Both the position numbers and the translations under genes were made by a program. The notes beneath the pieces were generated by a model. The model was not told the DNA's origin. It worked only from the letters and a program-made list of their open reading frames with translations, and ran no database searches. Below are positions 7,424 through 23,676 of a stretch of 64,000 nucleotides of DNA, one piece after another (within the stretch, counting starts at the first letter, position 1; the number at the start of each line of letters is the position of its first letter). The DNA is from Ricordea florida. Its lineage: Eukaryota > Cnidaria > Anthozoa > Corallimorpharia > Ricordeidae. The stretch lies in contig OX453272.1 in NCBI GenBank assembly GCA_949710005.1, positions 2,757,696-2,821,695 of the forward strand. The letters are read 5' to 3'.

Positions 7424-7462
7424 ACTACTATATAAGCGTGTTTATAATACCGTTTTTAGGTT

Positions 7463-7593
7463 ATTTTCAAATTTGACTGAAAATCCTTGAGCTTTTTTAG
7501 CTTAAGGGGTTTTGCAAAAGTCTTAAGCTCATTTTCAAATTTGTCTGACAATCCTTGAGCTTTTTTAGCTTAAGGGAGGTTTTGCAAAGTCTT
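7463..7593. repeat. Direct repeat inside the terminal repeat
   Basis: Two copies of about 62 bp (7463-7524, 7531-7593) share ATTTTCAAATTTG and CCTTGAGCTTTTTTAGCTTA. GAGCTTTTTTAGCTTAAG is itself partly palindromic. A mirrored pair lies in the right repeat. Tandem blocks near termini could bind replication or integration proteins; this is inferred. Confidence 0.75.
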
Positions 7594-7751
7594 GGCCAAG
7601 TTAGGGGCCGACAGGCGGAGCGAGCAGAGCGAGCGGAGGGCGAGACTGGACAGGGGCAAAGTCTATGCAAAGTTCATGAGTACGTTTTGGGTTTGAGGAA
7701 GGTTTCAAGTTCTGCAAATTTATAAGTTCGGTTTTTTTCAGACTACAAAAA

Positions 7752-7764
7752 TTTGATTTAAAGG
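7752..7764 (+). promoter_or_regulatory. Promoter motif TTTGATTTAAAGG for DNA polymerase
   Basis: ATTTAAAGG begins 34 nt before the ATG. The TTGATTTAAAG form with the TTG prefix is shared with four other replication or accessory genes of the element. Confidence 0.55.
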
Positions 7765-7789
7765 ATAGGAAATCTACATAAGATTAGTT

Positions 7790-10700
7790 ATGGTTCAAAA
7801 TAAAAATTCTGAAGAAAAGCCAGGAAAAAATGGCAAAACAATAAGAAGTTTAATAATTGAACGGTTGGAAAAAATTATCAAGAAAAAGGGTAAATTTTTA
7901 CCAAAAAATGTGGTTATTAAAAAGTTGCGGAAAAATCCAAAAATTGATAGGTTTTTCGATAAATATCCAGATCAATTACAAAAAATATTTCGCGAAAAAC
8001 CAAGAAGAAGGAAATTAGCGCCAACTTTTATAAAACCGCAAAAATTAATTCGGGAAATACCAAGAATGAGGAAACTAGCACCAACTTTTATAAAACCTCA
8101 AAAACCAATTCTTGATGAGCTGGTACCTGAAATTAATGTTCCAATTCTCAAACCAATAAATAAAAGGCTTGAGGATTTGATGAATGAAAATATTATAAAA
8201 CTTACTAATAGTAAAAAATCTCAATCTAAAAAGAAAGGTAAAAATTTTTCTGATAGTGTGAGAGATGAATTGAAGGAAAAAACTAAAAAGAAAAGAACAA
8301 TAGTTCTTAAAATTATTTCACTAAATCCGTATGAAGAGGATCCTTTACTTCCAGATAATCGGAATGATATTATTAGAATTTGGAGGGATCTAAATAATGA
8401 TTTGACAGAAACAATTTTCAATCAGTTGGAACCCCAAATAGATATGGGAGTAAGAATTGTTTTCAGTTTTACTGCTTTAATTCAAAGAGGAAATGGAGAA
8501 ATAGCTTATCATTTTCATACATTTAGAAGCGGAGGAACTTTTAATTCCCTTTCAGAAATAAAAAAATATATAGAGAGGTGTGAGGGAGAGAGATTAAGCT
8601 TAGAAGGAGATGCTTGGATGAGAGCGTATTTACCTCCAGAAAAGAAGATTAATAAACCAGGTGTGAATGAGGCTGGAGTTGAGTTTACAGAAGTACAAAT
8701 AAAAGTTATTAATACTAGACAGCCTTTGGTTGGGTGTGGAAGATTACCCGATGAATTACGAAAGAAAAGATGTATTTACTCTGTAGATGATAAAGATGAT
8801 AATCTCTGTGTATGGAGGTGTTTGGCTATTCTAATGAATATTTGTGATGGTAAACAAAATCCCCAAAAAATTAAGAAAAATCCTGAAAAAAGAATAGAGA
8901 AAAGAGCATTATATTTAGCTAGAACTTTTTATGGTAAGAAAAAACTAAAAAAAGAAGATGTTAGATCAACAAAATTGGTTGATTTTGAGAAAATTTCAAA
9001 AACTTTTTCCATAAATATCAGGGCTTACGAGCAGAAAGATATATCAAATTTTAAAGTTTGGAAATTGGTGTTTGGGAAAAATAATTTCAAAGATAATTTA
9101 CCAACTTTAAATTTGGGTCTTTATAATAATCATTGTTTTTTCATTAAGGATCTAGATCTTCTTGCTAAAAACTGGGTATGTCAAGGATGTAAACAAAAAT
9201 TTACCAGACATGAAGATTTGAAAAGGCATTTTTCCGATGAAACATGCACAGGAGGAAAGACAAAAATAGTATGCACGGGAGAAAAGATAAAACACATAAT
9301 GAATGAATCTGACAAAGTTTTTTACGGGGGTAAAATAAATTTTAGTTATAAAGCATGCAGGTGGATAGAGCACCAATCTAAAATTATAGGAAAACATATT
9401 CATCATGGGCTTTGCGGACATGGTGGGGAAAGGTGTTATAGGGATGAGGAGGGGAATGAGATTTTGTTTGACGGATACGAACCCGAGACAAAAACTGTTT
9501 TTGAGTTTTATGGTTGTAAATGGCATGGGTGTCCTTGTTCAGCAACCGACAAGATTAAATATAATAAAACTATTGAAAGAGAGAATATGATAAAAATCTT
9601 AGGTTATAATTTAGTATCGGTTTGGGAGTGTGAAAATCCTGAATTACCTAATATCTGGTTCAAAAAGAAATTTAATCCATATCCCTATTTTATTGATTAC
9701 GATTTTGAGGGATTATTACAAAAAGAAGATAAACAGATTACCGATGATTTAATTTTCACTCACACGCACATTCCAGTTAGTGTCGCAATAATCGATAATT
9801 TAACAAAAAAACCCGTTTTTCTTTACAACCAAAATCCTGATCTCCTGATAAAAGAATTCGTTGAAAAATTTGAGGAAATAAGAAAAATTATAGTAGAAAA
9901 GGTTAGAGAAGAATATCCTCTACCTGATCAAGATTCCTTGCAAAAAAATGTCTTGCAAAAATATGAAGAATGGTGTAATCAAGTACCTGTTTTTGGGTTT
10001 AATAGTGGAAAATACGATATAAATTTGGTTAAAAAACATTTTATAAAACACATGACCGATAAAACAAGGGATATTTTTATTGCAAAGAAACAGAATAGGT
10101 ATATGTTTTTAACAACACCGAATTTCAAATTCTTGGATATAATGTCCTATCTTGCGCCTGGAGTTTCTTTTGATTCTTGGTGTAAAGCAAATAATTGTGA
10201 AGCCAAAAAACTTGTTCTACCTTATGAAAAATTGGACGGATATGATAAGCTTTCCTTAGTTGGGCCCGTGAAACATGAAGATTTTTACTCTTCATTGAAA
10301 AAGAAAAATATTTCTAAAGAAGAATATGAAGAATATTTGTTAGAATTCGAAAAGAGGGGTTGTGTTACAATGTTAGATTGGTTGAAAGAGTATAATTTGA
10401 ATGATGTTATTCCCTTTCTGGAAGCCCTTGAAAAAACAAGGAGTTTATATTATCCAGATGAAATTGATATATCAAAAGATGCTGTTTCCATTCCGGGGGT
10501 ATCAATGAGGGCGGTTCTAAATAAATATCAAAAAATGAAGAAGAAAGGTGATCCTGAATTGTACGCTCCAGGCCAATATTGCATTCATAGATGTAATAAA
10601 ATTTGTAATGATGAGTTTTGCAAAAAATGTTACAAAATAAGAAAAGATTGTAAAATATGCGACAAAAATAAGATTTATAAATTATTGAAAACGGGTATGG

Positions 10701-12214
10701 TTGGAGGCCCCAGTATTATATTTATGAGATATGCGGAGGCAGAAAAAACAATGATTCGCTCTCATAAATATAAAAATCCGGAAAATTGTGTGCGAATTGT
10801 TGGTTATGACGCAAATGGGTTATATCTATCCTGTTCTGGACAAGAAATGCCATGCGGGAAAGAAGAATGCATTGCTATTGAAAATCCATCGGATCCTGAA
10901 TTTATTAAGAAGATTTGCAAAGATATTCTTACTGGAAATCTTTTCGGATTTTGTCAAGTTGATATCCATGTCCCCGTTCATCTAAAAGAAAAGTTTGAAG
11001 AATTTTCTCCCTTATTCATTGTAGATGAAGTTCCTGAATATTTAGTACCAGAGCACATGAAAGAATATCAATTAGCGACAGGTAGAAAACATCTAAAAGA
11101 CAATAAAAAATTGCTTGGTGTCAACAAGGCAAAAAAGATATTTTTATATACACCTATGATAAAATGGTATCTTAATCATGGTTTGGAGATTACCGCAATC
11201 CATAATATTTTAAAGTATAAATCAGGGAGGCCCTTTGGATTTTTCCCAAAAGAGGTGGCAGACGCAAGAAGAAATGGAGATATTGAGGTTTTATTGGAAA
11301 AACTAAGTAAAGCCTTTGATGAAAACAAGATTGATGATGTGGTAAAAATTACCAATGAATTAAACCAATTCCCTGATATATTTAAAGTTATTGAAGAAAA
11401 TAAAGATATAAAAGTACTGATTGAAAAACTAAAACCAAAGTACAAAGGCTGTAAAGAATTAGCAGACACAAATAAACTTAGGGGAAATTCTTTCTACGGA
11501 AAAATGATAGAAGATAAAGAAAAACATAATATCACAAGGTATACTCAGGATGAGGAAGAGGTTGAAAAAGCCCTAAGATCTGCTTTCTTCGAGGATCTTA
11601 ATGAAATAAATGACACATATGAAATAATAAAACGAAAAAGATTAATAAAAATAGACAGACCCTATCAATGCGGAATCGCGGTTTATCAGCTGGCAAAATT
11701 AAGAATGCTGGAATTCTATTACGATTTTCTGGATAAATATCTAGATAGAAAGGATTTTGAGTTGATTCAAATGGATACAGATTCAATGTACATAGCAATT
11801 TCATCAGAAAATTTGGATGATATTATAAAAACCGAAATGAGAGAAGAATACTTTAGTGGTGGGAAAGAAAAATTCTTATCGACTTCTAAATATCATGATA
11901 AGACTCCGGGGTTGTTCAAAAAAGAGTTTGACGGGATTAGAATGATTGCAATTTCTTCAAAATGTTATTACGCGGAGGATGAGAAAGGAAAGGCAAAGTA
12001 TAGTTGTAAAGGTACAATTCATAGACAAAACGAAATGAACTGGGATAGATACATGTCAGCTTTGAAAGGGTCAATTGATATGTCACAAAATACAGGTTTT
12101 AGAATCAATGATAACCAAATTGTGACATATACACAAATTAAAAAAGGATTGAATGCTTATTACGATAAAAGATGGGTTTATGAGGATGGAATTCACACAA
12201 AACCATTATATTAG
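7790..12214 (+). CDS. Protein-primed family B DNA polymerase with OTU-like, zinc-finger and endonuclease-like N-terminal modules
   Basis: This 1474-aa protein replicates the element by protein priming. Exonuclease motifs: ExoI D638-x-E640, ExoII around N738...YD743, ExoIII Y868-x3-D872. Polymerase motifs: A at D1007-x3-LY (DANGLYL), B at NSFYG (1233-1237), C at D1329-T-D1331 and KxY at 1391-1393; all catalytic residues are present. The N-terminus (1-300) is very lysine-rich and has a 20-residue tandem repeat at 68-107. Cys340 in DNLCVWRC and His448 in NNHCFFIKDLD form an OTU-type cysteine peptidase-like pattern. A C2H2/C2HC finger lies at 464-485. A VSR/restriction-like segment with FDGYEP...EFYGCKWHGCPC lies at 560-583. 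The ATG lies inside the terminal repeat. The 3' end overlaps the convergent integrase gene by 9 bp. Confidence 0.95.
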   Translation: MVQNKNSEEKPGKNGKTIRSLIIERLEKIIKKKGKFLPKNVVIKKLRKNPKIDRFFDKYPDQLQKIFREKPRRRKLAPTFIKPQKLIREIPRMRKLAPTFIKPQKPILDELVPEINVPILKPINKRLEDLMNENIIKLTNSKKSQSKKKGKNFSDSVRDELKEKTKKKRTIVLKIISLNPYEEDPLLPDNRNDIIRIWRDLNNDLTETIFNQLEPQIDMGVRIVFSFTALIQRGNGEIAYHFHTFRSGGTFNSLSEIKKYIERCEGERLSLEGDAWMRAYLPPEKKINKPGVNEAGVEFTEVQIKVINTRQPLVGCGRLPDELRKKRCIYSVDDKDDNLCVWRCLAILMNICDGKQNPQKIKKNPEKRIEKRALYLARTFYGKKKLKKEDVRSTKLVDFEKISKTFSINIRAYEQKDISNFKVWKLVFGKNNFKDNLPTLNLGLYNNHCFFIKDLDLLAKNWVCQGCKQKFTRHEDLKRHFSDETCTGGKTKIVCTGEKIKHIMNESDKVFYGGKINFSYKACRWIEHQSKIIGKHIHHGLCGHGGERCYRDEEGNEILFDGYEPETKTVFEFYGCKWHGCPCSATDKIKYNKTIERENMIKILGYNLVSVWECENPELPNIWFKKKFNPYPYFIDYDFEGLLQKEDKQITDDLIFTHTHIPVSVAIIDNLTKKPVFLYNQNPDLLIKEFVEKFEEIRKIIVEKVREEYPLPDQDSLQKNVLQKYEEWCNQVPVFGFNSGKYDINLVKKHFIKHMTDKTRDIFIAKKQNRYMFLTTPNFKFLDIMSYLAPGVSFDSWCKANNCEAKKLVLPYEKLDGYDKLSLVGPVKHEDFYSSLKKKNISKEEYEEYLLEFEKRGCVTMLDWLKEYNLNDVIPFLEALEKTRSLYYPDEIDISKDAVSIPGVSMRAVLNKYQKMKKKGDPELYAPGQYCIHRCNKICNDEFCKKCYKIRKDCKICDKNKIYKLLKTGMVGGPSIIFMRYAEAEKTMIRSHKYKNPENCVRIVGYDANGLYLSCSGQEMPCGKEECIAIENPSDPEFIKKICKDILTGNLFGFCQVDIHVPVHLKEKFEEFSPLFIVDEVPEYLVPEHMKEYQLATGRKHLKDNKKLLGVNKAKKIFLYTPMIKWYLNHGLEITAIHNILKYKSGRPFGFFPKEVADARRNGDIEVLLEKLSKAFDENKIDDVVKITNELNQFPDIFKVIEENKDIKVLIEKLKPKYKGCKELADTNKLRGNSFYGKMIEDKEKHNITRYTQDEEEVEKALRSAFFEDLNEINDTYEIIKRKRLIKIDRPYQCGIAVYQLAKLRMLEFYYDFLDKYLDRKDFELIQMDTDSMYIAISSENLDDIIKTEMREEYFSGGKEKFLSTSKYHDKTPGLFKKEFDGIRMIAISSKCYYAEDEKGKAKYSCKGTIHRQNEMNWDRYMSALKGSIDMSQNTGFRINDNQIVTYTQIKKGLNAYYDKRWVYEDGIHTKPLY

Positions 12215-13195
12215 AACAGAATTAGGGGGTAACTCTGTATCATCCGGAATAACCTGTAATTCTTCACGAACAAAACCTCTTCTTGGGCCGTCCTCTAAAA
12301 AGTATAAAACAGGCTGATTGGGAGAAATTCTACTTCCAGAAATATAATAAACTTTTATACTCCAAATGGGATCTGTGGCTCTTCTTCTTTCTCCACCCTC
12401 AAGTTCGCCCGGAGATAATAAATATCTAACCGTAACTTCAGTTGGTAGTCTAACCTCATCAAGACCCACCACACGTTTGTAATTTTTGGGTTCAATATCA
12501 ATCTCTTTCATTTTTATAGCCTCATCTGGCTCTTTACCTGTTATTCTGTTTTTCGTATTATTCAAAGTTTTTAGAATATCTGGTAATCTTTTCACCCATA
12601 CCCTTGATCGATCATTACTAATCATTTCTTGCGCATATTGATGACTAAATAATCTTTCTCCTAATATTCTGTTTGCGTTTTCCACAAATGCTTGTGCTCT
12701 ATGATTACCAGCTTCACTTCTTTGCATTTTCACATTATGGTAATTCATGAGTTTACTAACTTCTCCCATAAATTCTTTACCAGGATCAACCATTAATGTT
12801 TTTGGGAATTTCAATCTTCTAGAATATATTTTCTTAAAAGCTTCTGATATCTCTCGACTTTCTTTTGAGGTTAATGGCTCAGCATCTTTATATCTCGAGG
12901 CGATATCAATCACAACTAACGCATATTTATATGTTTTTCTTCTAACTTTATCATGCGGTAAAAATAATAAATCTGCTTGGTGAATCTGGTTGGGTTGATC
13001 CACAGTCCAGTGAGGTCTAGGTATATATTTAGGAGCAGGTAGATAGATTTGCCATATTGCTTGTTTCTCTAACCACCGTTTTGTCTCATTTTCATTTACT
13101 CTAGCCTTCTCTGCCAATTTAGTAATTGCAGAATATCCTTTCCAATACCCTTCGGCCGAATAATATATTTTTGTGAGAATATTTTCGTTGCTCAT
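12206..13195 (-). CDS. Retroviral-type DDE integrase of the Polinton
   Basis: This 329-aa protein should insert the element with a short target duplication. Residues ~10-52 form an HTH-like N-terminal region ending in a WLEKQ motif. The RNase H-fold core (rve family) has D75 (HQADLLFLP), D137 (MVDPGKEF) and E172 (AFVENANR), a D,D-34-E triad. The C-terminal third (~275-318) has the Tudor/SH3-like pattern ending in a GFVREELQV block that is usual in Polinton integrases. It is divergent from the small gene at 13226 and shares a 31-bp promoter region with it. All catalytic residues are intact, which agrees with the clean 5-bp duplication at the ends. Confidence 0.92.
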   Translation of the reverse strand: MSNENILTKIYYSAEGYWKGYSAITKLAEKARVNENETKRWLEKQAIWQIYLPAPKYIPRPHWTVDQPNQIHQADLLFLPHDKVRRKTYKYALVVIDIASRYKDAEPLTSKESREISEAFKKIYSRRLKFPKTLMVDPGKEFMGEVSKLMNYHNVKMQRSEAGNHRAQAFVENANRILGERLFSHQYAQEMISNDRSRVWVKRLPDILKTLNNTKNRITGKEPDEAIKMKEIDIEPKNYKRVVGLDEVRLPTEVTVRYLLSPGELEGGERRRATDPIWSIKVYYISGSRISPNQPVLYFLEDGPRRGFVREELQVIPDDTELPPNSVLI

Positions 13196-13225: not shown

Positions 13226-13417
13226 ATGGTGTCGGAGGAAGAAAAAATAAAATTTACCGAATACCAAATTAATATTATGAAAAAAATTATCAGAAAAAAA
13301 ATTTTATATATGCAAGATGGCGACCAAATTTTTAATGTTTTAATTTTAATTCCTGAGGCGAGAGAAGGTTTATTAAAACATATCGATAGGTTAGAAAATA
13401 GAGCAACACAGGTTTAA
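13226..13417 (+). CDS. Small charged protein of unknown function
   Basis: This 63-aa protein is lysine- and glutamate-rich with a likely helix at residues 10-28. No known domain was recognised. It starts just after the TATCTTATAAAT motif that also precedes the capsid gene, in head-to-head orientation with the integrase. Its stop is 29 bp before the ATG of the capsid gene. The promoter-like sequence and position in the structural block support a real gene, but its small size leaves doubt. Confidence 0.55.
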   Translation: MVSEEEKIKFTEYQINIMKKIIRKKILYMQDGDQIFNVLILIPEAREGLLKHIDRLENRATQV

Positions 13418-13446: not shown

Positions 13447-14685
13447 ATGACGTCTGAAAAAATTAATCCAAACAGAATTCCCAAGGAACCATTTGGTTTG
13501 AAAGCAGAATCAACACTGAATAGAATTACTCTAAATCCATCCACAGCCAGTCCGGGAGAAACATTATACATAAATATTCCAAAACTCGCCGAGAATTTGG
13601 TGATTGTGCCGGGAAGTGTATCTCTTCTATTTGATTTAGATGTTGAGGGTCATGCGAATAATACAGTTGTGAATAATGTGGGTCGTAATCTTGTAACCAG
13701 ACTGAAAGTTCTTTTTGGAGGAGAAACATTGCAAGATACCCAAAGATATGATTTATTTCAAACATATCATGATTTATTCTTAACTGAAGAAGAGCGTGAG
13801 GATAGATTAAAACAAGGTATTTCTTCGTTAAATATTAGAAAACTTAGAACAAAATCTGGAGATGTGAAAACACAAGATACAAAAGAAGTTGCTCTCGCTA
13901 ATGTTCATGGTTCAAAGTACAGAATACCAATAAATCATCCTATTCTAAACGATCATGGCGTTTTTTATCCAAAAGCGCTGGAAAATCATCTTATATTTGA
14001 GATTACACTTGCCCCAATCGCTAATATTCTTATTTATTCTGACACAACTAAAGCACCATCTTATTCAATCAAAAACTTAGAGTTAGAATATTCTTCAATT
14101 TCTAGTGAATACTTAGCCCGTGAGGCTCAAGCAGCTTATCAAGTTGGTAAAGGATTCTTTTATGAAAATATTACCTTGCACAAAACTTTTACATTTTCCA
14201 TTGGCGGGGATGGCGTTATTAATCAGCATATTAATTTACCGAGAAGATCAATGACTGGGGTATTATTTTTGTTTTTAATGCCTCAAGCTGCAGGAGCAAG
14301 GGATTCTGAAAATTTTTATAATCCTGGTATATCTTCCGTTGAAATTGATGTTGATGGCGTACCAAATAGAATATACTCTAGGGGAATGATTCCGTCCGAT
14401 CTTTGGGAATCCGTGAAGAAACGATTCCGGCCAACGGGAGAACAAATTTCATTGAAAGAAAAAGAATTTTACGCGGATAAGTTTGCTCTTTGGGTTGATA
14501 CTAGAACTCATCCAGATAATGGTATTCATGGCGGCGGACTTGCTCTAAATAATACCCACGATGGTGTAAAAATAGAAATTAAACGAAAACAGAGCGGATC
14601 TGGAACCGTAACTTGTCATATGTTTGTTGTAGCGGATGCAATGATGGAGATTATGAATTCAAGTTTGAGAGCAATTAAGTACTGA
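13447..14685 (+). CDS. Major capsid protein-like, double jelly-roll (hexon) type
   Basis: This 412-aa protein has no signal peptide or membrane segment and is rich in predicted beta strands. The N-terminal half carries a pattern I associate with cnidarian Polinton/adintovirus capsid genes: a leading LNRITLNPST segment, LVIVPGSVSLLFDLDVEG, RNLVTRLKVLFGGETLQ and YDLFQTYHDLFLTEEER. The second half ends with KIEIKRKQSGSGTVTCHMFV. It lies just upstream of the packaging ATPase, the normal position of an MCP in this lineage. At 412 aa it is shorter than many Polinton MCPs, so structure prediction would be needed to confirm two jelly rolls. Trimeric capsomers are inferred from family knowledge. Confidence 0.7.
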   Translation: MTSEKINPNRIPKEPFGLKAESTLNRITLNPSTASPGETLYINIPKLAENLVIVPGSVSLLFDLDVEGHANNTVVNNVGRNLVTRLKVLFGGETLQDTQRYDLFQTYHDLFLTEEEREDRLKQGISSLNIRKLRTKSGDVKTQDTKEVALANVHGSKYRIPINHPILNDHGVFYPKALENHLIFEITLAPIANILIYSDTTKAPSYSIKNLELEYSSISSEYLAREAQAAYQVGKGFFYENITLHKTFTFSIGGDGVINQHINLPRRSMTGVLFLFLMPQAAGARDSENFYNPGISSVEIDVDGVPNRIYSRGMIPSDLWESVKKRFRPTGEQISLKEKEFYADKFALWVDTRTHPDNGIHGGGLALNNTHDGVKIEIKRKQSGSGTVTCHMFVVADAMMEIMNSSLRAIKY

Positions 14686-14731: not shown

Positions 14732-15358
14732 ATGGAAGATTTGCGAGATAAAATACCATTCCATTGTATTATAACAGGACCCACAAATTGCGGAAAAACA
14801 AAGTACTTAATTGAACAGCTCCGTGGCCCATTCCGGAAAGTTTTTGAATATATTGTGTTAATTTGTCCAACCTATTCTAAAAATAAAACCTATAATAATT
14901 TTGCCCGAGGAGATAAACATTTCTATGTATTATCGCCGGATGCAAGTAATTCAGATGAGATCAATGAATTGTTAAATGATTGCCAAATTTTATTCTCCGG
15001 TACGAATACATTAATAATTCTAGATGATTGCGCTGTTTCCTCCGATCTGAAGAAAAGATCGAATAAGTTTATAGATTTAGCATTCTCCGGAAGGCATCAT
15101 GGATTATCAATGTGGGTTTTAACTCAGCAATTGACATCGATAGCAAAACCATTCCGAGAAAATGTAGCCTGCGTTGTTACTTTTCATAATCCTTCCCAGA
15201 AAGGGATGAAAATGTTTTTTGAAGATTATGGCGGCGATTTGGATTATGAATTAGGGAAAAAGTTTGTACAACTACTAAAAACCGAAAAATATTCTAGACT
15301 TTGTTTGAGTTTGCGTTACCCATTTAATTGCTATTTAGAGATTCCCGAAGTGATTTAA
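14732..15358 (+). CDS. FtsK/A32-type genome-packaging ATPase
   Basis: This 208-aa P-loop ATPase is predicted to pump DNA into preformed capsids. Walker A is GPTNCGKT (16-23), Walker B is LIILDD (94-99), and a sensor-like TQQL motif lies at 131-134. SGRHHGLSMW (119-128) is typical of the A32/HerA-FtsK packaging family of Polintons, adintoviruses, virophages and NCLDVs. Length fits the family's usual 200-260 aa. It follows the capsid gene by 46 bp and is followed after 5 bp by the next ORF, so the structural genes form a tight plus-strand array. Confidence 0.92.
   Translation: MEDLRDKIPFHCIITGPTNCGKTKYLIEQLRGPFRKVFEYIVLICPTYSKNKTYNNFARGDKHFYVLSPDASNSDEINELLNDCQILFSGTNTLIILDDCAVSSDLKKRSNKFIDLAFSGRHHGLSMWVLTQQLTSIAKPFRENVACVVTFHNPSQKGMKMFFEDYGGDLDYELGKKFVQLLKTEKYSRLCLSLRYPFNCYLEIPEVI
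15334..15343 (+). promoter_or_regulatory. Promoter motif ATTTAGAGAT for the 182-aa gene
   Basis: It begins 30 nt before the ATG at 15364 and lies inside the 3' end of the ATPase gene, so the motif is embedded in coding sequence. This supports the 15364 start over an upstream ATG at 15328. Confidence 0.4.
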
Positions 15359-15363
15359 CAAAT

Positions 15364-15912
15364 ATGACAAACGTAGAAGATTATATTAAAGAAAATACCG
15401 ACCGACCTAATGGAGAAACGGTAAAGGATGATAATGAACTTGAAATAAAACAAGAATCACTTGCCATTCTCGCAGCCTTGGGAACAACAAAGGAATATTT
15501 GGGGGCTGAAATGAGCCTGGGCGATATAAAGAAATTATCTGCAAAAGATGTTGAAAAGTATTTTAATCGTTATCAAGCGGTAATGGGCAAGAAAATTAAT
15601 GGGGGATTAGTAGATTCATCCCTGCAATTGGTTTCCAAACTTATTTCATATTTAGTTCCGGTTGATGATATAGAATCTCTTTACAAAGATCTGAAGAATG
15701 ATGATTTGGTAAATCGCGAACTAACAAACATTGTTGGGTTATTAGCATTGAAAGCAGGAAGATTGGCAGCACTTGCTAGCGGACTATTTCAAGTAGCTAA
15801 ACACGTAAAATTCAACAAAAATCAGCAATTTTCAAGAGAAGAACCAGTTAGTGGTGGCGCAACTAATCAGGAAACTAAGCAATCTGCTGAAGGTGTTGAT
15901 ACAGTATATTAA
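15364..15912 (+). CDS. Unrecognised structural-block protein, 182 aa
   Basis: The frame extends upstream to an ATG at 15328 inside the ATPase gene. I prefer the ATG at 15364 because it clears the ATPase stop and has the motif at -30. The protein is acidic at the N-terminus and then helical, with LAKDVEKYFNRY-like heptads. A moderately hydrophobic alanine/leucine-rich helix (about 118-140, LLALKAGRLAALASGLF) could associate with a membrane or core. It has a polar, glycine-poor C-terminal tail. No known family was recognised. Position next to the MCP and ATPase suggests a minor virion protein. Confidence 0.65.
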   Translation: MTNVEDYIKENTDRPNGETVKDDNELEIKQESLAILAALGTTKEYLGAEMSLGDIKKLSAKDVEKYFNRYQAVMGKKINGGLVDSSLQLVSKLISYLVPVDDIESLYKDLKNDDLVNRELTNIVGLLALKAGRLAALASGLFQVAKHVKFNKNQQFSREEPVSGGATNQETKQSAEGVDTVY

Positions 15913-15949: not shown

Positions 15950-16369
15950 ATGTCTGAACAAAGTGTAGGAGGAGATGCGGAGCAAATTACTACTGATCCC
16001 AAACCAGATACTAAAAAGAGGGAGAAAGATCCAAAAAAAGTCGCAGCTGGTAAGAAATTAGCTGAATATAATAAAAAAGCAAAAGAAGCATTAGCTAGGG
16101 AGATTAAACGTGAGACGCAAAACGAAAATGAAGATAATCAAGAAAAGACAAATAATGATTATAAATCGTGGCTTCCAGAGTTATCTTTTACTACTGTTTT
16201 ATCTGTTGTTGGATTGGGGTTTACAGCATTCGATCTTTTTATGAGATATAAGGAAAAAGCAAGAGATGAATATTCCAATAGGATAGCTGATTTATCGCAA
16301 GTTCCTCAATTACCACAACCAAAAAAGATACCATTTTCTGTAGCTCCAAAATCTTTAGGAATGGAATAA
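15950..16369 (+). CDS. Basic single-pass membrane protein, possible core protein
   Basis: This is a 139-aa protein. Residues 20-57 are strongly basic and helical (DPKKVAAGKKLAEYNKKAKE), followed by an acidic/asparagine stretch. One membrane segment lies at ~79-98 (FTTVLSVVGLGFTAFDLF), and a proline-rich tail ends PKSLGME. The basic part suits DNA binding and the membrane segment suits an internal lipid layer or a membrane-active virion component; both are inferences. The DPKKVAAGKKLA pattern recurs, in my memory, in cnidarian Polinton-type predicted proteins, but no characterised family is known to me. Confidence 0.65.
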   Translation: MSEQSVGGDAEQITTDPKPDTKKREKDPKKVAAGKKLAEYNKKAKEALAREIKRETQNENEDNQEKTNNDYKSWLPELSFTTVLSVVGLGFTAFDLFMRYKEKARDEYSNRIADLSQVPQLPQPKKIPFSVAPKSLGME

Positions 16370-16413: not shown

Positions 16414-16632
16414 ATGTCAACCGAAAACAAACTTGTGAAAACTGTAACTGATTCGGCGGTACTTATCGGATTAGGAGCTGGAGTTGGTTATGTGGCTAAA
16501 AAGGTAATGAAAGAATCATTTTTGAGTGACCCATCCTCTAGTATTACAAATTATGCAAAATGGGTTGCAGTATTATCCGGAAGTATGTATCTAAAAACAT
16601 ATTTAGAGGATCAGAAGATTTTACCAAAATAA
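16414..16632 (+). CDS. Small two-pass membrane protein, 72 aa
   Basis: Two hydrophobic segments (about 14-30, glycine-rich IGLGAGVGYVA, and 46-62) flank a short polar loop, with lysine at both ends. It ends one base before the ATG of the next gene. Together with the following 130-aa protein it forms a pair of compact membrane genes. Function is unknown; a virion membrane or lysis-type role is possible but unsupported. Confidence 0.6.
   Translation: MSTENKLVKTVTDSAVLIGLGAGVGYVAKKVMKESFLSDPSSSITNYAKWVAVLSGSMYLKTYLEDQKILPK
16601..16610 (+). promoter_or_regulatory. Promoter motif ATTTAGAGGA for the 130-aa gene
   Basis: It begins 33 nt before the ATG at 16634 and lies inside the preceding coding sequence. 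Confidence 0.35.
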
Positions 16633-16633: not shown

Positions 16634-17026
16634 ATGGCGACAATATTAATGATGGGGATAGGAGCAATATTGAATGCAACGGCATTTACCGGAGGAAATA
16701 TTCTTGCAAAATATTTATCTGGACGCAATGTGGATACGGAAAAAATACGACACGATAAAGCAATGGAAAAATATCAAAGAGATTACGAAGCATATCAGGA
16801 AAAAAGACAAAAAATGCTTGATTGGAAAATGAAGAAAAAAGATGAAAAATATCAAGCAGCAAAAAATATTTCTACTACAAATCAGGCTTTTGAATTGTAC
16901 GGTCAAATGACTGAACCCAAATTCTCTGATTATTACAAACCAAACGATGACCAAAAGACTGGGGAAATGGTATATGTCGGAGCCGGAATGTTAGGTTTGG
17001 GGTATGCGGTAAGTAAAATATTATAA
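16634..17026 (+). CDS. Hairpin-topology membrane protein with central coiled coil, 130 aa
   Basis: An N-terminal hydrophobic segment (1-27) and a C-terminal one (~112-130, glycine-rich) bracket a highly charged central helix (about 35-80) with heptad character (EKYQRDYEAYQEKRQKM). Proteins with this layout appear in my memory of cnidarian virus-like elements but have no assigned function. It is the last plus-strand gene before the hairpin at 17038-17068 and converges on the SSB-like gene. Confidence 0.62.
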   Translation: MATILMMGIGAILNATAFTGGNILAKYLSGRNVDTEKIRHDKAMEKYQRDYEAYQEKRQKMLDWKMKKKDEKYQAAKNISTTNQAFELYGQMTEPKFSDYYKPNDDQKTGEMVYVGAGMLGLGYAVSKIL

Positions 17027-17082: not shown

Positions 17083-17946
17083 TTAGTTCTCCACTAAATC
17101 AAAACTCCTCCCGCGGGTTCGGGGGCTAAAATGTCTATATTCACTTTCACTTTCATCGTCATAACCAATATAGGAAGAAGCAGATTCTCCGTCAGAAATA
17201 ATTACTTCGGGGTTATATTTTCTGCGGGGAGCCAATCTTTTAATTTCTTTTTTCGTTTCGACAAGGGCATCATAAAGTTTTACCTGTAAAGAAATACATC
17301 TTCCAATAAATATTGATTCAATTTTAATAGAACACTCTGCGTAGCAACCTTTATTGATTAAATCTTGGGGGATTATTGTTCCATTGCAATCCTCACTTCT
17401 AATATCATAAAATTTCGTAAGAAATTCTCCTTGTTTGTAGGAAATTAATTTGGGGTATAATGTTGGTCCCCTATCTGGAACTCTTTGCATATAAGGTTTA
17501 TTTTTACCATCTTCAATTTTTTCCATTTTCCAATAGAGAGGATTTAAACCTCCCTTTGATCTGGTGAGATCAGATCTTTCCAACTCAAATCTATCAATTT
17601 CTTCTTTATTTTCTAAAATATGATCAATGCAACAATCTACTATTTCATTAAATTTTTCTACCCATTCTTCTTCTTCATCGGTAGGTCTATTTCCGCTCCA
17701 TAAGCATAAAGGAAAAGAATAAGTTGAGAAACTTTCAGAAACTCCGAATGAATATAAGCGACCAGTTTTAATAACTAATTGTCCTTTAGTTCCATCATTA
17801 TTCCTTGAAAAAATTTTAATTCGTCTAAATTCTACCTTTGGTTTGCTACCAGGAACTTCTTGTAAAATTGGTTTAGAAAAAATCATACTTTCTTTTGGAT
17901 TATAATTCTTAATATCTTCTATTAGTTGAGTATTTTCGTTCATCAT
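17083..17946 (-). CDS. Probable ssDNA-binding protein (NCLDV I3/DUF5871-like)
   Basis: This is a 287-aa soluble protein. Residues ~55-100 (GQLVIKTGRLYSFGV, then SFPLCLWSGNRPTDEEEEWV) match a pattern I associate with a predicted OB-fold SSB family of large DNA viruses, related to poxvirus I3. The C-terminal ~35 residues are acidic and serine-rich, as in many SSBs. It is transcribed opposite to the virion genes and has the TTGATTTAAAAG promoter form shared with the polymerase. An SSB would suit protein-primed strand-displacement replication. The family assignment is from memory and needs a profile or structure search. Two adjacent ATGs (17946, 17943) are possible starts. Confidence 0.55.
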   Translation of the reverse strand: MMNENTQLIEDIKNYNPKESMIFSKPILQEVPGSKPKVEFRRIKIFSRNNDGTKGQLVIKTGRLYSFGVSESFSTYSFPLCLWSGNRPTDEEEEWVEKFNEIVDCCIDHILENKEEIDRFELERSDLTRSKGGLNPLYWKMEKIEDGKNKPYMQRVPDRGPTLYPKLISYKQGEFLTKFYDIRSEDCNGTIIPQDLINKGCYAECSIKIESIFIGRCISLQVKLYDALVETKKEIKRLAPRRKYNPEVIISDGESASSYIGYDDESESEYRHFSPRTRGRSFDLVEN

Positions 17947-18045: not shown

Positions 18046-19266
18046 ATGTCAGAAGAAATACCAATGGAAGATTTTTCAAGAGATAATGATGATGATGATG
18101 ATAATTATGATTGGGATGATACAACTTTCCAAACCACAAACACATCTACATCCCTTGAACAAGGTTATCTTGGTTATGATGATTATAACCAATCAAGAGA
18201 TAGGGAACAATGGGAAAAACCACCAGAAAGAATTAACCCGGGGGAAAGAGATTGGGGATATGATAAAATGAGAGAAGCTAGGCAAGAACTCAAAAGATAT
18301 TTCCCAGATTACGAGCCAAATGAAAGCCCATTTAATGTCCGATTTGGAGAAAATAATATCATAGAAGGACAATTAAGTACATCCAGAAATAATGTTTGGC
18401 ACACAATAGTTGATGAAAATGGGGTTCTTAATATAGAAAATTTACCAAAAACATTTAGAAAAGCTCTAGGTGCTGATTACGAAACCATTTTGGAAAAATA
18501 TAATAATTCCCAGTTAGAATTGAATGAAGAAAAACAAAAACATAATGAATTACGTTCTGCAGTACAAGGAATAGATTCACTTTTAGCAACGCGCACGGAG
18601 GAGATGAGTGGATATGCCCAAAGAGAAAAAGAACTAAGACAATTCATTGAAAAAATACAAGTACAGAAAGCTGAAAATAAAAGTCTCTTAGATCAAACCG
18701 TTAAACAGAATGTAGAATTAAAAATACAAGCAGAAAAACTTTTGGAAGAGGTAAAATTATACAAAGAAGAAATAGATAAATATAAGAAGGGCGAATCCAA
18801 TTTAACAAAGTTAGAACAGAGCAAAGAAAGATTAAAAGCTGAGAATGATAAATTAAAAGAACAACTTAGAAATAAAACAATTTCATTAGAAGAACAATTA
18901 TCAGTTATAGATAGTAAAAAAGATGAAATACTTAAAAATTTACCATTACGAGAGCGGTTAAAGTATATCTTCAAAAAGTATGGCTTTACAGTTTTTGCTA
19001 TTCTAAGTGCTGTGGGTGTCGTCATTGGTGTTATAGTTTCTAGTCTTTCAAAGGGTTTATCCTCTTTGGGGAGAGGAGTTGGAAATGGTTTGAAAACTCT
19101 TGGGAAAAAACTAGGCGAAATATTGCCAGGAATGGTTGGGGCAATAGTTAGCTTTCTTTTCAAAACGGCTGGTGAAGTAATTGGATTTTTGGGAAAGAAT
19201 GCTTGGCTTTTGATAATGGCTGTAGTTCTATATTTTGTGGAACAAATGAAGAACAAGAAAAAGTAA
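18046..19266 (+). CDS. Long coiled-coil protein with C-terminal hydrophobic region, 406 aa
   Basis: The N-terminus is acidic (DNDDDDDNYDWDD). A soluble domain spans about 70-145. A long coiled coil runs from about 150 to 300 (glutamate/lysine/leucine heptads). The last ~95 residues contain three hydrophobic stretches separated by glycine/lysine-rich amphipathic sequence (GLSSLGRGVGNGLKTLGKKLG). The protein ends in a membrane anchor followed by basic residues. A coiled coil plus membrane-inserting end suits a virion fibre, scaffold or membrane-fusion role; none is established. Length and layout match no characterised Polinton protein that I know. Confidence 0.68.
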   Translation: MSEEIPMEDFSRDNDDDDDNYDWDDTTFQTTNTSTSLEQGYLGYDDYNQSRDREQWEKPPERINPGERDWGYDKMREARQELKRYFPDYEPNESPFNVRFGENNIIEGQLSTSRNNVWHTIVDENGVLNIENLPKTFRKALGADYETILEKYNNSQLELNEEKQKHNELRSAVQGIDSLLATRTEEMSGYAQREKELRQFIEKIQVQKAENKSLLDQTVKQNVELKIQAEKLLEEVKLYKEEIDKYKKGESNLTKLEQSKERLKAENDKLKEQLRNKTISLEEQLSVIDSKKDEILKNLPLRERLKYIFKKYGFTVFAILSAVGVVIGVIVSSLSKGLSSLGRGVGNGLKTLGKKLGEILPGMVGAIVSFLFKTAGEVIGFLGKNAWLLIMAVVLYFVEQMKNKKK

Positions 19267-19268
19267 CA

Positions 19269-19278: not shown

Positions 19279-19304
19279 AACATACCGTTCAGTAAAAACA
19301 CAAT

Positions 19305-19922
19305 ATGGGTGACTACAATGGAATTTATCCTCAAATACCTAATAATTTCCAAACACAAAGCGGAGATAGTACAATTAATTTCAGATTACAGAAATCAAGT
19401 GAAGTATTGCAAAATCTCGAGAAGGAAATTAAACATTACGAAGAAGTAAGAAAAAAATATAATAGAGCAAGAGGAATATGCACAAAAATTAGTGTTTCTG
19501 GTGGATTTGTTTCAGTTCTTCTATCAGCAAGTGGATTAGGAACTTCTCTCACGGGTTTCGGGGCTATAGTTGGAGTTCCTTTGGGTGTGGTCGGTGGAGT
19601 TTTTGGGGTTTTCTCAATTGTATTTGGTTTTGCCTCCAAAAATCTTTCCGGAAAAGTTAGTAAACATGAACAAACCGTAGCCATTGCAAAATCAAAATTA
19701 AACACCATTAACGATTTGGTCTCAAAAGCTTTGAAAGATAATGTTATATCCGATCAAGAATTTTCCATAATTTTGGCGGAGTTGGAAAAGTTTCAAAAAC
19801 TGAAACAAGAAATACGACAAAAATTCAGAAAAGATTCAGAAAAAAACTTCGACATGAGTATGATAAGGAAGAAAGTTCGAGAAGATCTATTAAAAGAACT
19901 TGTCGGAGAGAAAGGACATTAA
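19305..19922 (+). CDS. Glycine-zipper membrane protein with flanking helices, 205 aa
   Basis: A helix at ~25-50 leads into a long glycine-rich hydrophobic region at about 57-105 (SGLGTSLTGFGAIVGVPLGVVGGVFGVFSIVFGFAS). Charged helices follow from 110 to 200. A helical-hairpin glycine zipper framed by coiled coils resembles pore- or membrane-inserting proteins in general layout (ApoL-like), but no homology is claimed. It follows the 406-aa membrane protein by 38 bp, and both may act in the same membrane step. The function is unknown. Confidence 0.65.
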   Translation: MGDYNGIYPQIPNNFQTQSGDSTINFRLQKSSEVLQNLEKEIKHYEEVRKKYNRARGICTKISVSGGFVSVLLSASGLGTSLTGFGAIVGVPLGVVGGVFGVFSIVFGFASKNLSGKVSKHEQTVAIAKSKLNTINDLVSKALKDNVISDQEFSIILAELEKFQKLKQEIRQKFRKDSEKNFDMSMIRKKVREDLLKELVGEKGH

Positions 19923-20037: not shown

Positions 20038-21639
20038 ATGTTATTGGACAATTTCAAAACTAGGTACCCAAAAGCTAACTTGGAAAAATTTACATTTGTT
20101 AATGACTCATTCGGAGGATATATCGAATGGAAAGTTAATGGGACAACAATTATGTCAAATGACGATCCTTCGGGAAAAACCTGGACTGAAAATCTTTCTA
20201 ATAATTTGAAAACATTATTATGGGAAGATTTAGGGGTCGAAAATAAAGTTAGGTCAAGTTCATTTCCCAAAAGTTTAACATTTACAAAACAAACATATCC
20301 AATACCTGGGGTTAAATTTAATGAGTTTGCTGATAATGTAACAATGATGTTAACTAATTTAGAAATATATGTTTCAGAAAAAGATTATTTCACTTCGGCA
20401 ATGAAAAATGTTTTTAAAAATCAGACTGTAGAACTTAATAGCGGAAAAGAAGCTAGAGCTTGGTTGAGTAAACCAAATATTAACCAGTGGCCTCAACAGT
20501 TAAACATGGCGGTTTGGTGCGCAACATCTGGATGCGGGGTAAGTTTAAGTGATATTTTTAGTTACCCTAAGGTTATTAAAAGTTTTTTTGTATTTCACAT
20601 ATACTTTACAATAAGAAGAATATTAGAAGAATTAAAAGTGGTAAAACCCGACGAAGAAACTTTTTCCGTAAAAAATAATCAATATAACAAAAATGCTTAT
20701 AATAGATTGTGCGCAGAATTTGGGTTAAGTAATAATCAAGATTTTAAGGGATGGAACAAACCTTTAGCTGATTTCAGATTCAAGGGAGGAGCAAACCATG
20801 GAGCTGGAGATGTATTCATAGATTATGGGAAAGGATACATACCCCCCGGAAAAACCAGTTCACAAGCAATAGGCGGAGGAAAACAAAATGTCAGAATTGT
20901 AAGAAATTACGATCCAGACGCAAATATTTGGCCAAGCAGTTCAGCTAAATTTTCAGATTATGGAGGAAAGGCAATAGAAGGAAATTTAATATCTATGCTC
21001 AGAAATGATCATTTTGTTGATTTTCAATATGCTTGGTTCATACCAGAATCTGGACATGGATTAACCAAAGCAGGATTGGGTAGAATAAATAGATCAGTTG
21101 AAGCTTTTGTTTATTGTATATTAGGAGCACAAGTTAATACTAGAAATTCTATTGTGGGTAATGGCGGAGGAGCAATCGAAACGCAAGATGAATTCAAAGC
21201 ATTATTTGAAAGTAGTGTTTTAGAAAATGATATTTCCAAATCCGTCCAAAATTACCAAAAATCTGTACAGGAAACTAAATTAAGGCTTGATTTAGCTGTA
21301 GCACCAGGTGTTTGGTTGATCCCAAGTAATTTAATTATAAATACAGAAAGTGTGGTCGGGTACAATAATAATCTGAAAATAGCTACAGAAGATATGAAAT
21401 TCGGTAAAAATAATTCAATAAATGTCGAAACAAAAAATGTCGGAATCCCAAATAGTTTAGGAACAACAAAAGTTTTATTAAATACTAATCCACAACCAAT
21501 GAAACCAAAATTAAATGAAAAAGATAAATCAGACAATGAGGAGGAAGAAGTTAAGAATATAGAAACATCTTCTCACCAAAATAATCTTGCGGTTTTAATG
21601 ATTGGAGTAGGATTATTATCCTGGTTTTTATTTCGCTAA
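20038..21639 (+). CDS. Tail-anchored structural-type protein, 533 aa
   Basis: This is the largest protein without a recognised family in the element. It is mainly soluble, with glycine-rich loops at about 245-300 (KGGANHGAGDVFIDYGKGY) and 365-380. A helical region spans 390-420. A charged linker (about 485-510) precedes a single C-terminal membrane segment that ends in LFR. The C-terminal quarter is conserved (~70% by hand) in the second element at 3-446, so it is under constraint across divergent relatives. It follows membrane-protein genes and precedes the penton-like gene, so a vertex, entry or membrane-associated virion protein is likely. Aspartate-, cysteine- or serine-protease motifs were looked for and not found. 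Confidence 0.72.
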   Translation: MLLDNFKTRYPKANLEKFTFVNDSFGGYIEWKVNGTTIMSNDDPSGKTWTENLSNNLKTLLWEDLGVENKVRSSSFPKSLTFTKQTYPIPGVKFNEFADNVTMMLTNLEIYVSEKDYFTSAMKNVFKNQTVELNSGKEARAWLSKPNINQWPQQLNMAVWCATSGCGVSLSDIFSYPKVIKSFFVFHIYFTIRRILEELKVVKPDEETFSVKNNQYNKNAYNRLCAEFGLSNNQDFKGWNKPLADFRFKGGANHGAGDVFIDYGKGYIPPGKTSSQAIGGGKQNVRIVRNYDPDANIWPSSSAKFSDYGGKAIEGNLISMLRNDHFVDFQYAWFIPESGHGLTKAGLGRINRSVEAFVYCILGAQVNTRNSIVGNGGGAIETQDEFKALFESSVLENDISKSVQNYQKSVQETKLRLDLAVAPGVWLIPSNLIINTESVVGYNNNLKIATEDMKFGKNNSINVETKNVGIPNSLGTTKVLLNTNPQPMKPKLNEKDKSDNEEEEVKNIETSSHQNNLAVLMIGVGLLSWFLFR

Positions 21640-21674: not shown

Positions 21675-21698
21675 GAGTTTAATATAATCAAAACAAAA

Positions 21699-22334
21699 AT
21701 GTTGAGTATTACAATGTATGATTCAGAAACCAGGATTTATTTTGATCCTCCGCTGAAAAATCTTCGAGAGATACAGCTCCTGGATTGTAATATACAAACC
21801 AAAAGATTGATTAATTTCAAGGATCAACAGATATTATTCAATGATAATAATCAACCCCAAATAATAATACAACCTGGTACATATTCGTTGCGTAATATTC
21901 AATCAATCTTTCTTAATGATTCTAATAGGGAAAAGATAACAATCATTGAGACAGACGCTGTTGACTATCTTTATTCAAATAAGAACTTCAAAATAAAACT
22001 TACGAGAGGGTTAGCGATTGGTTTAGGAGTGCCTGAAGTTATAAATCCTGGTAAATTATACCCCATAAATATTCAGATTAGGGAACCTTTGAGACTTATG
22101 TGTAGTATAGTGGATAATAAATCGTCATATATGAATAACACCAAATATGGAGAACTTGTGAAACTCGCGCCATCAAACCTAATTGCAAACATACCCTCAA
22201 AGGATTATCCGACAATTCCGATTCAAAAATATGAGAGCCCCATAAACCACTTCGATTTAACTATCTTAGACAATAAATGGAAAAAACTTGATTTAGGGGG
22301 ATTGCCAATAACTTTTAGTTTAAGATTTAGATAA
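21699..22334 (+). CDS. Probable penton/minor capsid protein (single jelly-roll type)
   Basis: This 211-aa protein is rich in beta strands and has no membrane segment. The N-terminal IIIQPGTYSLRNIQSIF and the C-terminal ...FDLTILDNKWKKLDLGGLPITFSLRF patterns match, in my memory, small capsid-type proteins annotated as penton in cnidarian Polinton/adintovirus genomes. The central LRLMCSIVD segment is also typical. Size suits a single jelly roll. No sequence family search could be run, so it is given as probable. It converges on the 176-aa gene with a hairpin in the 37-bp gap. Confidence 0.55.
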   Translation: MLSITMYDSETRIYFDPPLKNLREIQLLDCNIQTKRLINFKDQQILFNDNNQPQIIIQPGTYSLRNIQSIFLNDSNREKITIIETDAVDYLYSNKNFKIKLTRGLAIGLGVPEVINPGKLYPINIQIREPLRLMCSIVDNKSSYMNNTKYGELVKLAPSNLIANIPSKDYPTIPIQKYESPINHFDLTILDNKWKKLDLGGLPITFSLRFR

Positions 22335-22340
22335 ATTTTT

Positions 22341-22370: not shown

Positions 22371-22371
22371 A

Positions 22372-22902
22372 TTAATCTTCTTCACAAAAAACCTCTTCTT
22401 CCAAAAACCTTAACTCTTCAAAATCAACACACCAATCTAAATATCTAGATGGATGCCATGTTACAACCATTAATTCATCATATAAAGATTCATAAATATT
22501 CTCTTTATAAAATATCTTATATGGGTCAACTTCTATTTTTAAAGTAAAAGAATCATGAATAATTTTCTTTTTCATCTCACTCCCATGCCAATATGTAAAA
22601 GTGCCATCCATTGCTTTTATTAATTCTGAAACAAGCTCTTCATCAGTAAAGTTTTTACAAAAACTAAAAACAAAAAAAATATCCTTTAATCCGTAACAAA
22701 TAGTACACCCAAAATCTTTATTTTCTTCAAAACCTCGATTTTTTATCATTATTGTTCTTTTTTCCCTCATAAAAAACCTATATTTTGGGATGTCTTCCAT
22801 TAAATATTCCTTTAATACAGTAATAAAAGTATATATATCTAATCTTTCTTCATTAATATATTCAATAGTAATATTTTCTTCTTCTGCATCTTTTCTATCC
22901 AT
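22372..22902 (-). CDS. Accessory protein with C-terminal WHPSRYLDWC motif, 176 aa
   Basis: This is an acidic, soluble protein of unknown function. The C-terminal TWHPSRYLDWC followed by an acidic tail (ending EEVFCEED) resembles a short C-terminal signature I recall from several giant-virus hypothetical proteins (W-x-P-x-R-x2-DWC-x2-E/D). It is transcribed with the zinc-repeat gene on the minus strand and has the TTGATTTAAAG promoter form, so it is likely expressed with the polymerase. No equivalent lies between the two genes retained in the second element, so it appears dispensable. Confidence 0.6.
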   Translation of the reverse strand: MDRKDAEEENITIEYINEERLDIYTFITVLKEYLMEDIPKYRFFMREKRTIMIKNRGFEENKDFGCTICYGLKDIFFVFSFCKNFTDEELVSELIKAMDGTFTYWHGSEMKKKIIHDSFTLKIEVDPYKIFYKENIYESLYDELMVVTWHPSRYLDWCVDFEELRFLEEEVFCEED

Positions 22903-22924
22903 TTTATTTTATTATATTTTTTTT

Positions 22925-22935
22925 CTTTAAATCAA
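22925..22935 (-). promoter_or_regulatory. Promoter motif TTGATTTAAAG for the 176-aa gene
   Basis: ATTTAAAG begins 30 nt before the ATG at 22902; the full 11-mer is also in the polymerase promoter. Confidence 0.5.
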
Positions 22936-23310
22936 TTTTCTACAATCTTTACAAGAAGCTTTTTGTTTACCGTGTTCGCATATTTGTTTTCCGCCACATT
23001 CTTTGCATTGTTGTTTTTGATTATTATGTTCGCATATTTGAGATCCTCTGCATTCTTTGCACCTATATTTATATTTATTATGCTCACAATTATACCCATT
23101 ACATTCGCTACAAAATTTTTTTATTTTCCCATGAACACAAATAATTCTAATGCGGAAAACTTTTTCAATCAAATCAGTAATTTCCTCATCTTTAAATTTT
23201 GTAATTTCATCAATTAGTTTTTGCTTACTCATTTTTGCTCTTCCTTTAATTTCAAGATCTTTCGCTATTATTCTTAGTTCAAAAATATATAAATTTCTTA
23301 ACTTTTCCAT
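22927..23310 (-). CDS. Zinc-binding repeat protein with Rho_N/SAP-like N-terminus
   Basis: This is a 127-aa protein. Residues 1-40 resemble a Rho_N/SAP-type helical motif (ELRIIAKDLEIKG...KQKLIDEI). From ~60 to the end there are four to five repeats of C-x-H-x5-8-C-x2-C-x-G, each with a Cys3His-type set. It is the rightmost gene, and its first four bases (ATGG) are the end of the right terminal repeat, so its promoter is the same sequence as the polymerase promoter. A homologue is kept in the second element at 501-914. A DNA-binding or regulatory role is inferred. Confidence 0.75.
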   Translation of the reverse strand: MEKLRNLYIFELRIIAKDLEIKGRAKMSKQKLIDEITKFKDEEITDLIEKVFRIRIICVHGKIKKFCSECNGYNCEHNKYKYRCKECRGSQICEHNNQKQQCKECGGKQICEHGKQKASCKDCRKLI

Positions 23311-23676
23311 AACTAATCTTATGTAGATTTCCTATCCTTTAAATCAAATTTTTGTTGTCTGAAAAAAACCGAACTTATAAATTTGCAGAACTTGAAACCT
23401 TCCTCAAACCCAAAACGTACTCATGAACTTTGCATAGACTTTGCCCCTGTCCAGTCTCGCCCTCCACTCGCTCTGCTCGCTCCGCCTGTCGGCCCCTAAC
23501 TTGGCCAAGACTTTGCAAAACCTCCCTTAAGCTAAAAAAGCTCAAGGATTGTCAGACAAATTTGAAAATGAGCTTAAGACTTTTGCAAAACCCCTTAAGC
23601 TAAAAAAGCTCAAGGATTTTCAGTCAAATTTGAAAATAACCTAAAAACGGTATTATAAACACGCTTATATAGTAGT
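23307..23676 (-). repeat. Right terminal inverted repeat (370 bp)
   Basis: It is the reverse complement of 7424-7793 with two differences that I found (one near 23353, one in the GC-rich block near 23467). It carries the promoter and start codon of the zinc-repeat gene, including the mirrored TTTGATTTAAAGG at 23336-23348. Confidence 0.93.

Follow-up and report, generated by a model that had tools for sequence, protein, structure and literature searches.

An element of 16,253 bp of the Polinton kind, found at positions 7424-23676 of a 64,000-nt stretch of the Ricordea florida genome (hereafter the window, to which all unprefixed coordinates refer), raises the question of whether it multiplies as a transposon within its host or descends from a virus that spreads between hosts. 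Polintons and Mavericks were at first regarded as transposons that copy themselves, and the case made today is that they are viruses (PMC10120064, PMC4028283). The comparisons presented below indicate that the element is most probably a provirus, left by a virus with a linear double-stranded DNA genome that came from a population whose members recombine and depend on their capsid to spread. The terminal features of the element and its 16 genes, with sizes in amino acids (aa), are as follows.

7419..7423, no strand: left target-site duplication CCTGT, abutting the left arm
7424..7793, + strand: left terminal inverted repeat, starting ACTACTATATAAGCGTG and holding an internal 68-bp tandem repeat
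7790..12214, + strand: family-B DNA polymerase, 1474 aa, with a weak C2H2 finger and a Vsr-like nuclease region ahead of the exonuclease and polymerase motifs
12206..13195, - strand: rve (retroviral-type) integrase, 329 aa (PF00665)
13226..13417, + strand: 63-aa gene, retained by 28 of 30 copies with coverage of at least 90%
13447..14685, + strand: predicted major capsid (coat) protein, giant-virus-type double jelly-roll (Pfam, alignment, model)
14732..15358, + strand: packaging ATPase, A32-like (Pox_A32 match; Walker A and B by reading)
15364..15912, + strand: conserved gene, role unassigned (median dN/dS 0.21 in 29 copies)
15950..16369, + strand: putative virion protein, 139 aa, one hydrophobic segment (by reading)
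16414..16632, + strand: hydrophobic protein, 72 aa (97-99% identity in 5 of 5 copies)
16634..17026, + strand: 130-aa protein, hydrophobic at both ends (5 of 5 copies match at 89-93%)
17083..17946, - strand: DUF2738 protein, strongly variable (Pfam E 5e-52)
18046..19266, + strand: 406-aa protein, coiled-coil and C-terminal membrane segments (by reading)
19305..19922, + strand: 205-aa protein, membrane segments by reading, two allele classes (in five copies either 92-93% or 65%)
20038..21639, + strand: 533-aa protein, tail-anchored by reading, which varies more than the coat protein does
21699..22334, + strand: penton (single jelly-roll) candidate, 211 aa (by reading only)
22372..22902, - strand: hypervariable 176-aa gene (29-60% between copies; 3 of 5 matches partial)
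22927..23310, - strand: protein with a weak Rho_N match and Cys/His repeats (Pfam, reading)
23307..23676, - strand: right terminal inverted repeat, partner of the left arm
23677..23681, no strand: right target-site duplication CCTGT, abutting the right arm

The two arms are 370 nt each and differ at exactly two positions (7634 and 7744), and the CCTGT duplication directly outside them cannot be extended. The first-pass annotation of this DNA, made from the letters alone, had placed both ends to the base and reported all 16 frames open; both statements hold, the frames ranging from 63 to 1474 aa, and a size of 15-20 kb with terminal inverted repeats is that of a Polinton or Maverick. The count of 16 leaves out antisense and nested frames such as the 196-aa antisense frame at 18696-19283, which was rejected as a gene because it lies almost wholly within the 406-aa gene. 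The polymerase frame and the rightmost minus-strand frame both start within the last few bases of the repeats, the polymerase and integrase frames overlap tail to tail by 9 bases, and about half of the genes take their roles from reading of the sequence. The catalytic residues noted earlier in the polymerase, belonging to what we take to be motifs Exo I-III, A, B, C and KxY, are invariant in 26 of 26 aligned relatives, and it is on these residues that the protein is placed among the family-B polymerases characteristic of Polintons; no Pfam polymerase family matched it, and a sequence search of the PDB likewise gave none. A Vsr-like nuclease region in the same protein is suggested by a profile match (E 0.008), the C2H2 finger is a weak match, and an N-terminal OTU-like C/H motif was seen by eye. 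Polinton polymerases are of the protein-primed type, with terminal-protein and OTU-like domains; alignment of this one to the phi29 and PRD1 polymerases with hhalign put motif B in register at a probability below 1%, which is not significant. The integrase, the other enzyme expected of the group and also named by the first-pass annotation, matches PF00665 above the Pfam cut-off (E 7e-9; 36.2 bits versus 32.6) over the rve core only.

The capsid genes are the part of the element that speaks most directly to a viral origin. The coat protein matches Pfam Capsid_N below the cut-off (E 6e-4), and 52 of 60 aligned coat proteins, including that of the window, match it at E 0.1 or better. Its structure model is a double jelly-roll, as in Polintons and Mavericks, so that an objection raised in advance, that modelling might reveal a different architecture, falls away. 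In fold comparison, giant-virus proteins ranked above virophage and adenovirus proteins, and in the BFVD ranking a protein labelled 'Adintovirus sp.' came tenth, after coats bearing Megaviridae, ascovirus and Mimivirus names and a number of entries without a name; the coat protein therefore appears, as modelled, closest to giant-virus proteins. The packaging ATPase matches Pox_A32 (E 8e-12), and the Walker A and B motifs attributed to it can be read in its sequence. In sequence searches of solved structures the coat protein had no match, and the polymerases, the 533-aa protein, the ATPase and the penton candidate had none of use; for the penton candidate, Pfam gave no useful match either. No adenovirus-type (adenain) protease was matched by Pfam in the 17 element frames scanned, a search that a highly diverged protease would escape; since such a protease is reported in 74% of Polintons (PMC4028283), the failure to find one is not decisive. 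The host genome does hold 26 matches to the PF00770 protease, none of them in the window element (C12:15288689 and 25 others, most in open frames of about 198 aa), which suggests that a second, classical Polinton/adintovirus-like family may be present.

The element belongs to a large family. In the host assembly (537.8 Mb in 48 contigs, designated C1, C2 and so on), the terminus pattern occurs at 192 places on each strand and at none in a reversed control. The first 100 of these places resolve into 48 convergent pairs and 4 singles, the last single being the end of the list; the variable base agrees in all 48 pairs, of which 45 are spaced at 13.2-17.2 kb and the others at 27-40 kb. The three wide pairs (C2:41913958-41954358, C3:1757367-1789563 and C3:36328474-36355696) may represent elements inserted into one another. 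A fully degenerate 24-base coat motif was found at 2,861 places (control 0), and one 16-kb element per motif would give about 46 Mb, or 8.5% of the genome. Among the best-scored copies, in lists that each include the window and that favour intact copies, stop-free genes made up 101 of 101 for the coat protein (95-100% identity), 55 of 55 for the polymerase (94-100%) and 81 of 81 for the 533-aa protein (90-100%). A sample by coordinate was therefore also drawn, taking every fifth of the first 100 coat-motif places on C1, shifted one step off the window (n=20); it relies on an intact 24-base motif and spans 12.6 Mb at one end of the contig, and all 20 copies carry a full-length open coat gene at 74-98% identity. 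The density of coat motifs in this region (C1:1-12.6 Mb) is 7.9 per Mb, versus a genome mean of 5.3. The remaining genes were checked in five copies each, with different copies for each gene group. Full or nearly full-length matches were found in all five for the 72-, 130- and 139-aa genes and the penton candidate, the 533-aa gene matched at 73-96% (starting inside the gene in two copies, in one of them, L071, through a piece boundary), the last gene (22927-23310) at 49-85%, and the DUF2738 gene at 95, 61 and 58% in three copies, with none found in the other two pieces. Copies are mostly open, with some exceptions, and not riddled with the stop codons that had been named in advance as telling against an intact element.

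Insertion of these elements is recent relative to their diversity. Duplications of 5 bp flank ACTACT ends in 11 of 11 elements examined (for C3:2986534, AGGGT was read from the flanks, the scripted border being off by one chance base); Maverick target-site duplications are in general 5-6 bp long. Ungapped arm mismatches in ten elements, that of the window first, are 2/370, 0/407, 1/323, 0/180, 4/342, 0/237, 0 over at least 500, 0/238, 0/136 and 0/343, and only the eleventh (C8:29319245) departs from this, with 11/344 and length changes. Such near-identical arms imply recent insertion, as had been proposed for the window element. The two elements tested nonetheless lack close siblings: among the best 40 candidates scored for each, the window element, whose own arms are 99.5% alike, has the next element in the genome at 94% identity in the ends, and C3:37036497, with arms 100% alike, at 89%. 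The smallest pairwise synonymous divergence (dS) among 21 coat genes, from the coordinate sample and the window, is 0.214, a sample size with which sibling groups of a few tens remain compatible. Chromosomal copying would be expected to leave close siblings, and their absence for both elements argues against it; clonal amplification as the sole origin was set aside on these two tests.

This bears on the best surviving alternative, a self-synthesising transposon that multiplies only within the genome and whose capsid genes are passengers or have a non-infectious role. Thousands of motif copies in one genome would suit such a transposon, as would an integrase and inverted repeats of transposon type, but we regard it as unlikely, both for the lack of siblings and for the pattern of selection. 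The ratio of nonsynonymous to synonymous divergence (dN/dS) was computed for 30 copies, that of the window and those nearest to it by coat gene, dropping those with less than 90% coverage. Its median is 0.063 for the coat gene and 0.062 for the ATPase, versus 0.153 for the integrase (29 copies), 0.209 for the gene at 15364 (29 copies) and 0.258 for the 63-aa gene (28 copies, with single pairs above 1). In the coordinate sample plus window, the coat gene has a median of 0.127 over 210 pairs, the largest being 0.325. Purifying selection acts on the capsid and packaging genes, which are more constrained than the integrase.

A host-domesticated gene set, for instance an inducible defence like that of virophage-type proviruses, is a far more doubtful explanation. 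Provirus-based defence has been reported for protists, and a very large number of copies, open in the coat gene where sampled, could be reconciled with it. Against it, the elements that were examined are mosaics of young age, each flanked by a fresh duplication at a site unrelated to the others, and nothing pointed to a conserved locus, although no search aimed at one was made in other genomes. That viral contigs were joined into host scaffolds during assembly or through contamination is barely credible, for although many near-alike 16-kb units are hard to assemble, matching 5-bp duplications lie in each element's own flank in 11 of 11 cases and genes with GPCR, THAP and HYR domains share the window.

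The copies also show signs of recombination. Across 29 copies, the squared correlation (r2) is 0.18 for pairs of sites less than 30 bases apart and drops to about 0.06 for those separated by more than 300, and pairs with all four gametes rise from 50% under 30 bases to 66-71% farther apart. Gene-to-gene distance correlations of 0.14-0.45 lie below a within-coat control of odd versus even sites (0.54), and the two halves of the coat gene correlate at 0.29. Six elements with high-ranking polymerases (for instance 99% on C8) have coat genes 88.6-92.4% identical in nucleotides to that of the window, and the 29 copies nearest by coat have 91.8-95.1%.

The polymerase itself appears to be exchanged. 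For 10 coat genes of the sample of 20, the upstream polymerase is of the window type in two cases (93 and 83%) and of another type in seven, with one left untyped. Within the other type, six sequences match each other at 65-89%, and the seventh (L103), of which only the N-terminal part is present, was placed by matches of 46-55% over 69-100 residues. Where comparable, the other type is 20-27% identical to the window polymerase; a first search yielded no match for L103 or L106, and L106 reached 25% when searched again. The sharpest case is L107, where a polymerase 22% identical to that of the window, and itself interrupted, stands beside a coat protein 97.3% identical to the window coat protein (L093). 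Integrase matches of 82-94% were found in 7 of the 10 upstream pieces, five of those beside the other polymerase type, which indicates that the integrase is common to both types and the polymerase is not. Endonuclease_7 was matched in 3 of 4 other-type pieces scanned, two over the cut-off, with none in the partial L107 and no match in the one window-type piece scanned. The window-type polymerase motif occurs at 918 genome places (control 0); in the first 12.6 Mb of C1 it lies at the right distance from 22 of 100 coat motifs, and 6 of its 28 occurrences there lack a coat motif. The window type is thus the less common polymerase beside these coat genes. This offers a reason for the lack of close public polymerases: among 1,060 public relatives, the best of the 120 listed is 66% identical. 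By comparison, the coat protein has 654 public-protein relatives at E 0.001, the best of 120 listed being 96% identical and on a 16,053-base contig, and the 533-aa protein has 1,005, with one at 70% among the 120 listed, on a contig of equal length. IMG/VR scans with the coat protein (single sequence and alignment), the 533-aa alignment, the ATPase and the polymerase returned no relative.

Under the provirus reading, replication of the linear genome by the polymerase would start at the inverted repeats, a capsid would be built and filled by the coat protein together with the penton candidate and the A32-like ATPase, and the integrase would join the ends into host DNA through a 5-bp staggered cut. 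Spread would then proceed through capsids, and insertions would be drawn from a diverse replicating pool and not from chromosomal copying. The variable genes beginning at 20038, 22372, 17083 and 19305 are likely to form the surface, host-range or counter-defence part. The 533-aa protein among them is proposed as a virion-surface or membrane protein because of its tail-anchored look and its variation above that of the coat protein; its structure model is poor (predicted local distance difference test, pLDDT, 55.5).

Several observations weigh against this reading. Its basis is the sequence of a single assembly. Purifying selection speaks for a past need of the capsid, not for present activity. 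Every gene-to-gene correlation is positive, and p is under 0.05 for each of them except one, meaning that linkage is reduced and not absent; recurrent mutation contributes, as the 50% of four-gamete pairs under 30 bases attest, and either it or gene conversion between integrated copies could make up part of the recombination signal. The figures for intact copies are biased by top-scored lists, by the requirement for an intact motif and by the use of one contig end. Some genes are damaged or incomplete: the 406-aa gene is matched incompletely in 2 of 5 copies, L107 alone among the nine upstream polymerases assigned to a type consists of two separate open stretches, and a partial integrase and a partial gene 15364 each occur once (L018). 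The window element has no recognised capsid protease.

A wider picture is quite possible, if tentative: a genome, probably cnidarian, into which a swarm of recombining DNA viruses is still integrating. It would hold some 2,900 proviruses, for the most part intact and each inserted independently (about 8% of the genome at 16 kb apiece), that have one giant-virus-type capsid module in common but carry interchangeable replication genes with quite different polymerases. Were this so, a Polinton virion should be directly visible in this animal; as of a 2021 vertebrate survey, Polinton/Maverick particles had not been observed (PMC8097293). With many fresh insertions, selected capsid genes and polymorphic gene cassettes, the genome offers a natural test of Polintons as viruses, and one capsid with two very different polymerases would show within one population a replacement of replication genes that is otherwise inferred from distant comparisons.

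From its sequence and modelled coat, the window element is best classified as a putative provirus of the Polinton supergroup with a giant-virus-type capsid. The first-pass description of it as Polinton-like and intact stands on its inverted repeats, 16 open genes, motif-based polymerase and rve integrase. The label 'adintovirus-like', with the usual Polinton capsid set, is not supported as it was put, given the giant-virus coat fold, the A32-like ATPase, the lack of a detected adenain-type protease and the 5-bp duplication. Adintoviruses are defined by a hexon recognisable by BLASTP against adintovirus references and an integrase with a C-terminal chromodomain (PMC11071296); the family name was set aside, the element not having been assessed against the hexon criterion. 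Among the closest known systems are meldviruses with a poxvirus-like hexon, such as Meld23486 (PMC11071296), a name used by Buck et al. 2024 for the combination of an adinto-like polymerase (PolB) and integrase with a D13-like, large-virus-type coat fold (PMC11071296). Polintons and Mavericks including Hydra Polinton-1 (PMC4028283) share the size, inverted repeats, PolB, integrase, ATPase and double jelly-roll coat, and the sole significant match reported for the Hydra Polinton-1 coat protein is PBCV-1 VP54 (PMC4028283). Compared by descriptions only, the window element differs from Hydra Polinton-1 and other cnidarian elements in its 5-bp duplications, ACTACT ends, lack of a detected adenovirus-type protease and Vsr-like polymerase region. 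Among metazoan coat genes, those of cnidarians alone are described as falling outside the Maverick-Polinton cluster (Bellas 2023, PMC10120064), and a table in PMC7642931 gives counts of 21 and 12 for DUF2738 in two genomes of Hydra; both facts fit a cnidarian host.

Vertebrate Mavericks (Barreat and Katzourakis 2021, PMC8097293) are likewise intact, with inverted repeats, purifying selection on morphogenesis genes and inferred reinfection. Their duplications are of 6 bp, unlike the 5 bp of this family, and they reach at most 38 intact copies per genome (PMC8097293), in contrast to the 2,861 coat motifs found here. Comparable numbers, 2,224-4,841 coat genes per genome, are given for Trichomonas, Paulinella and Polarella (PMC10120064), whose hosts are protists and not an animal; the coat genes of Paulinella are diverse rather than identical (PMC10120064), as in this family. 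No animal case of such scale or of polymerase exchange was met in the literature searched, which included few subscription papers and no search aimed at exchange.

The surroundings of the element hold host-type genes, by which the host would be judged an animal.

28780-28855: tRNA-Arg
45052-45960: rhodopsin-type G-protein-coupled receptor (GPCR), host-type gene
52442-52933: THAP domain, host-type gene
62207-62569: HYR domain, host-type gene

To the left of the element, peptides encoded on one strand recur on the other (3264-3575 and 6099-6470; 3979-4305 and 5143-5439), as in a possible fold-back repeat at 3264-6470, and to its right a 131-bp unit stands in three tandem copies, 99% alike, at 27091-27488. 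Lastly, 6.4 kb outside the element, a 171-aa open stretch with Rho_N and Cys/His repeats (501-1019, - strand) resembles the gene at 22927-23310 and is possibly the trace of another insertion.

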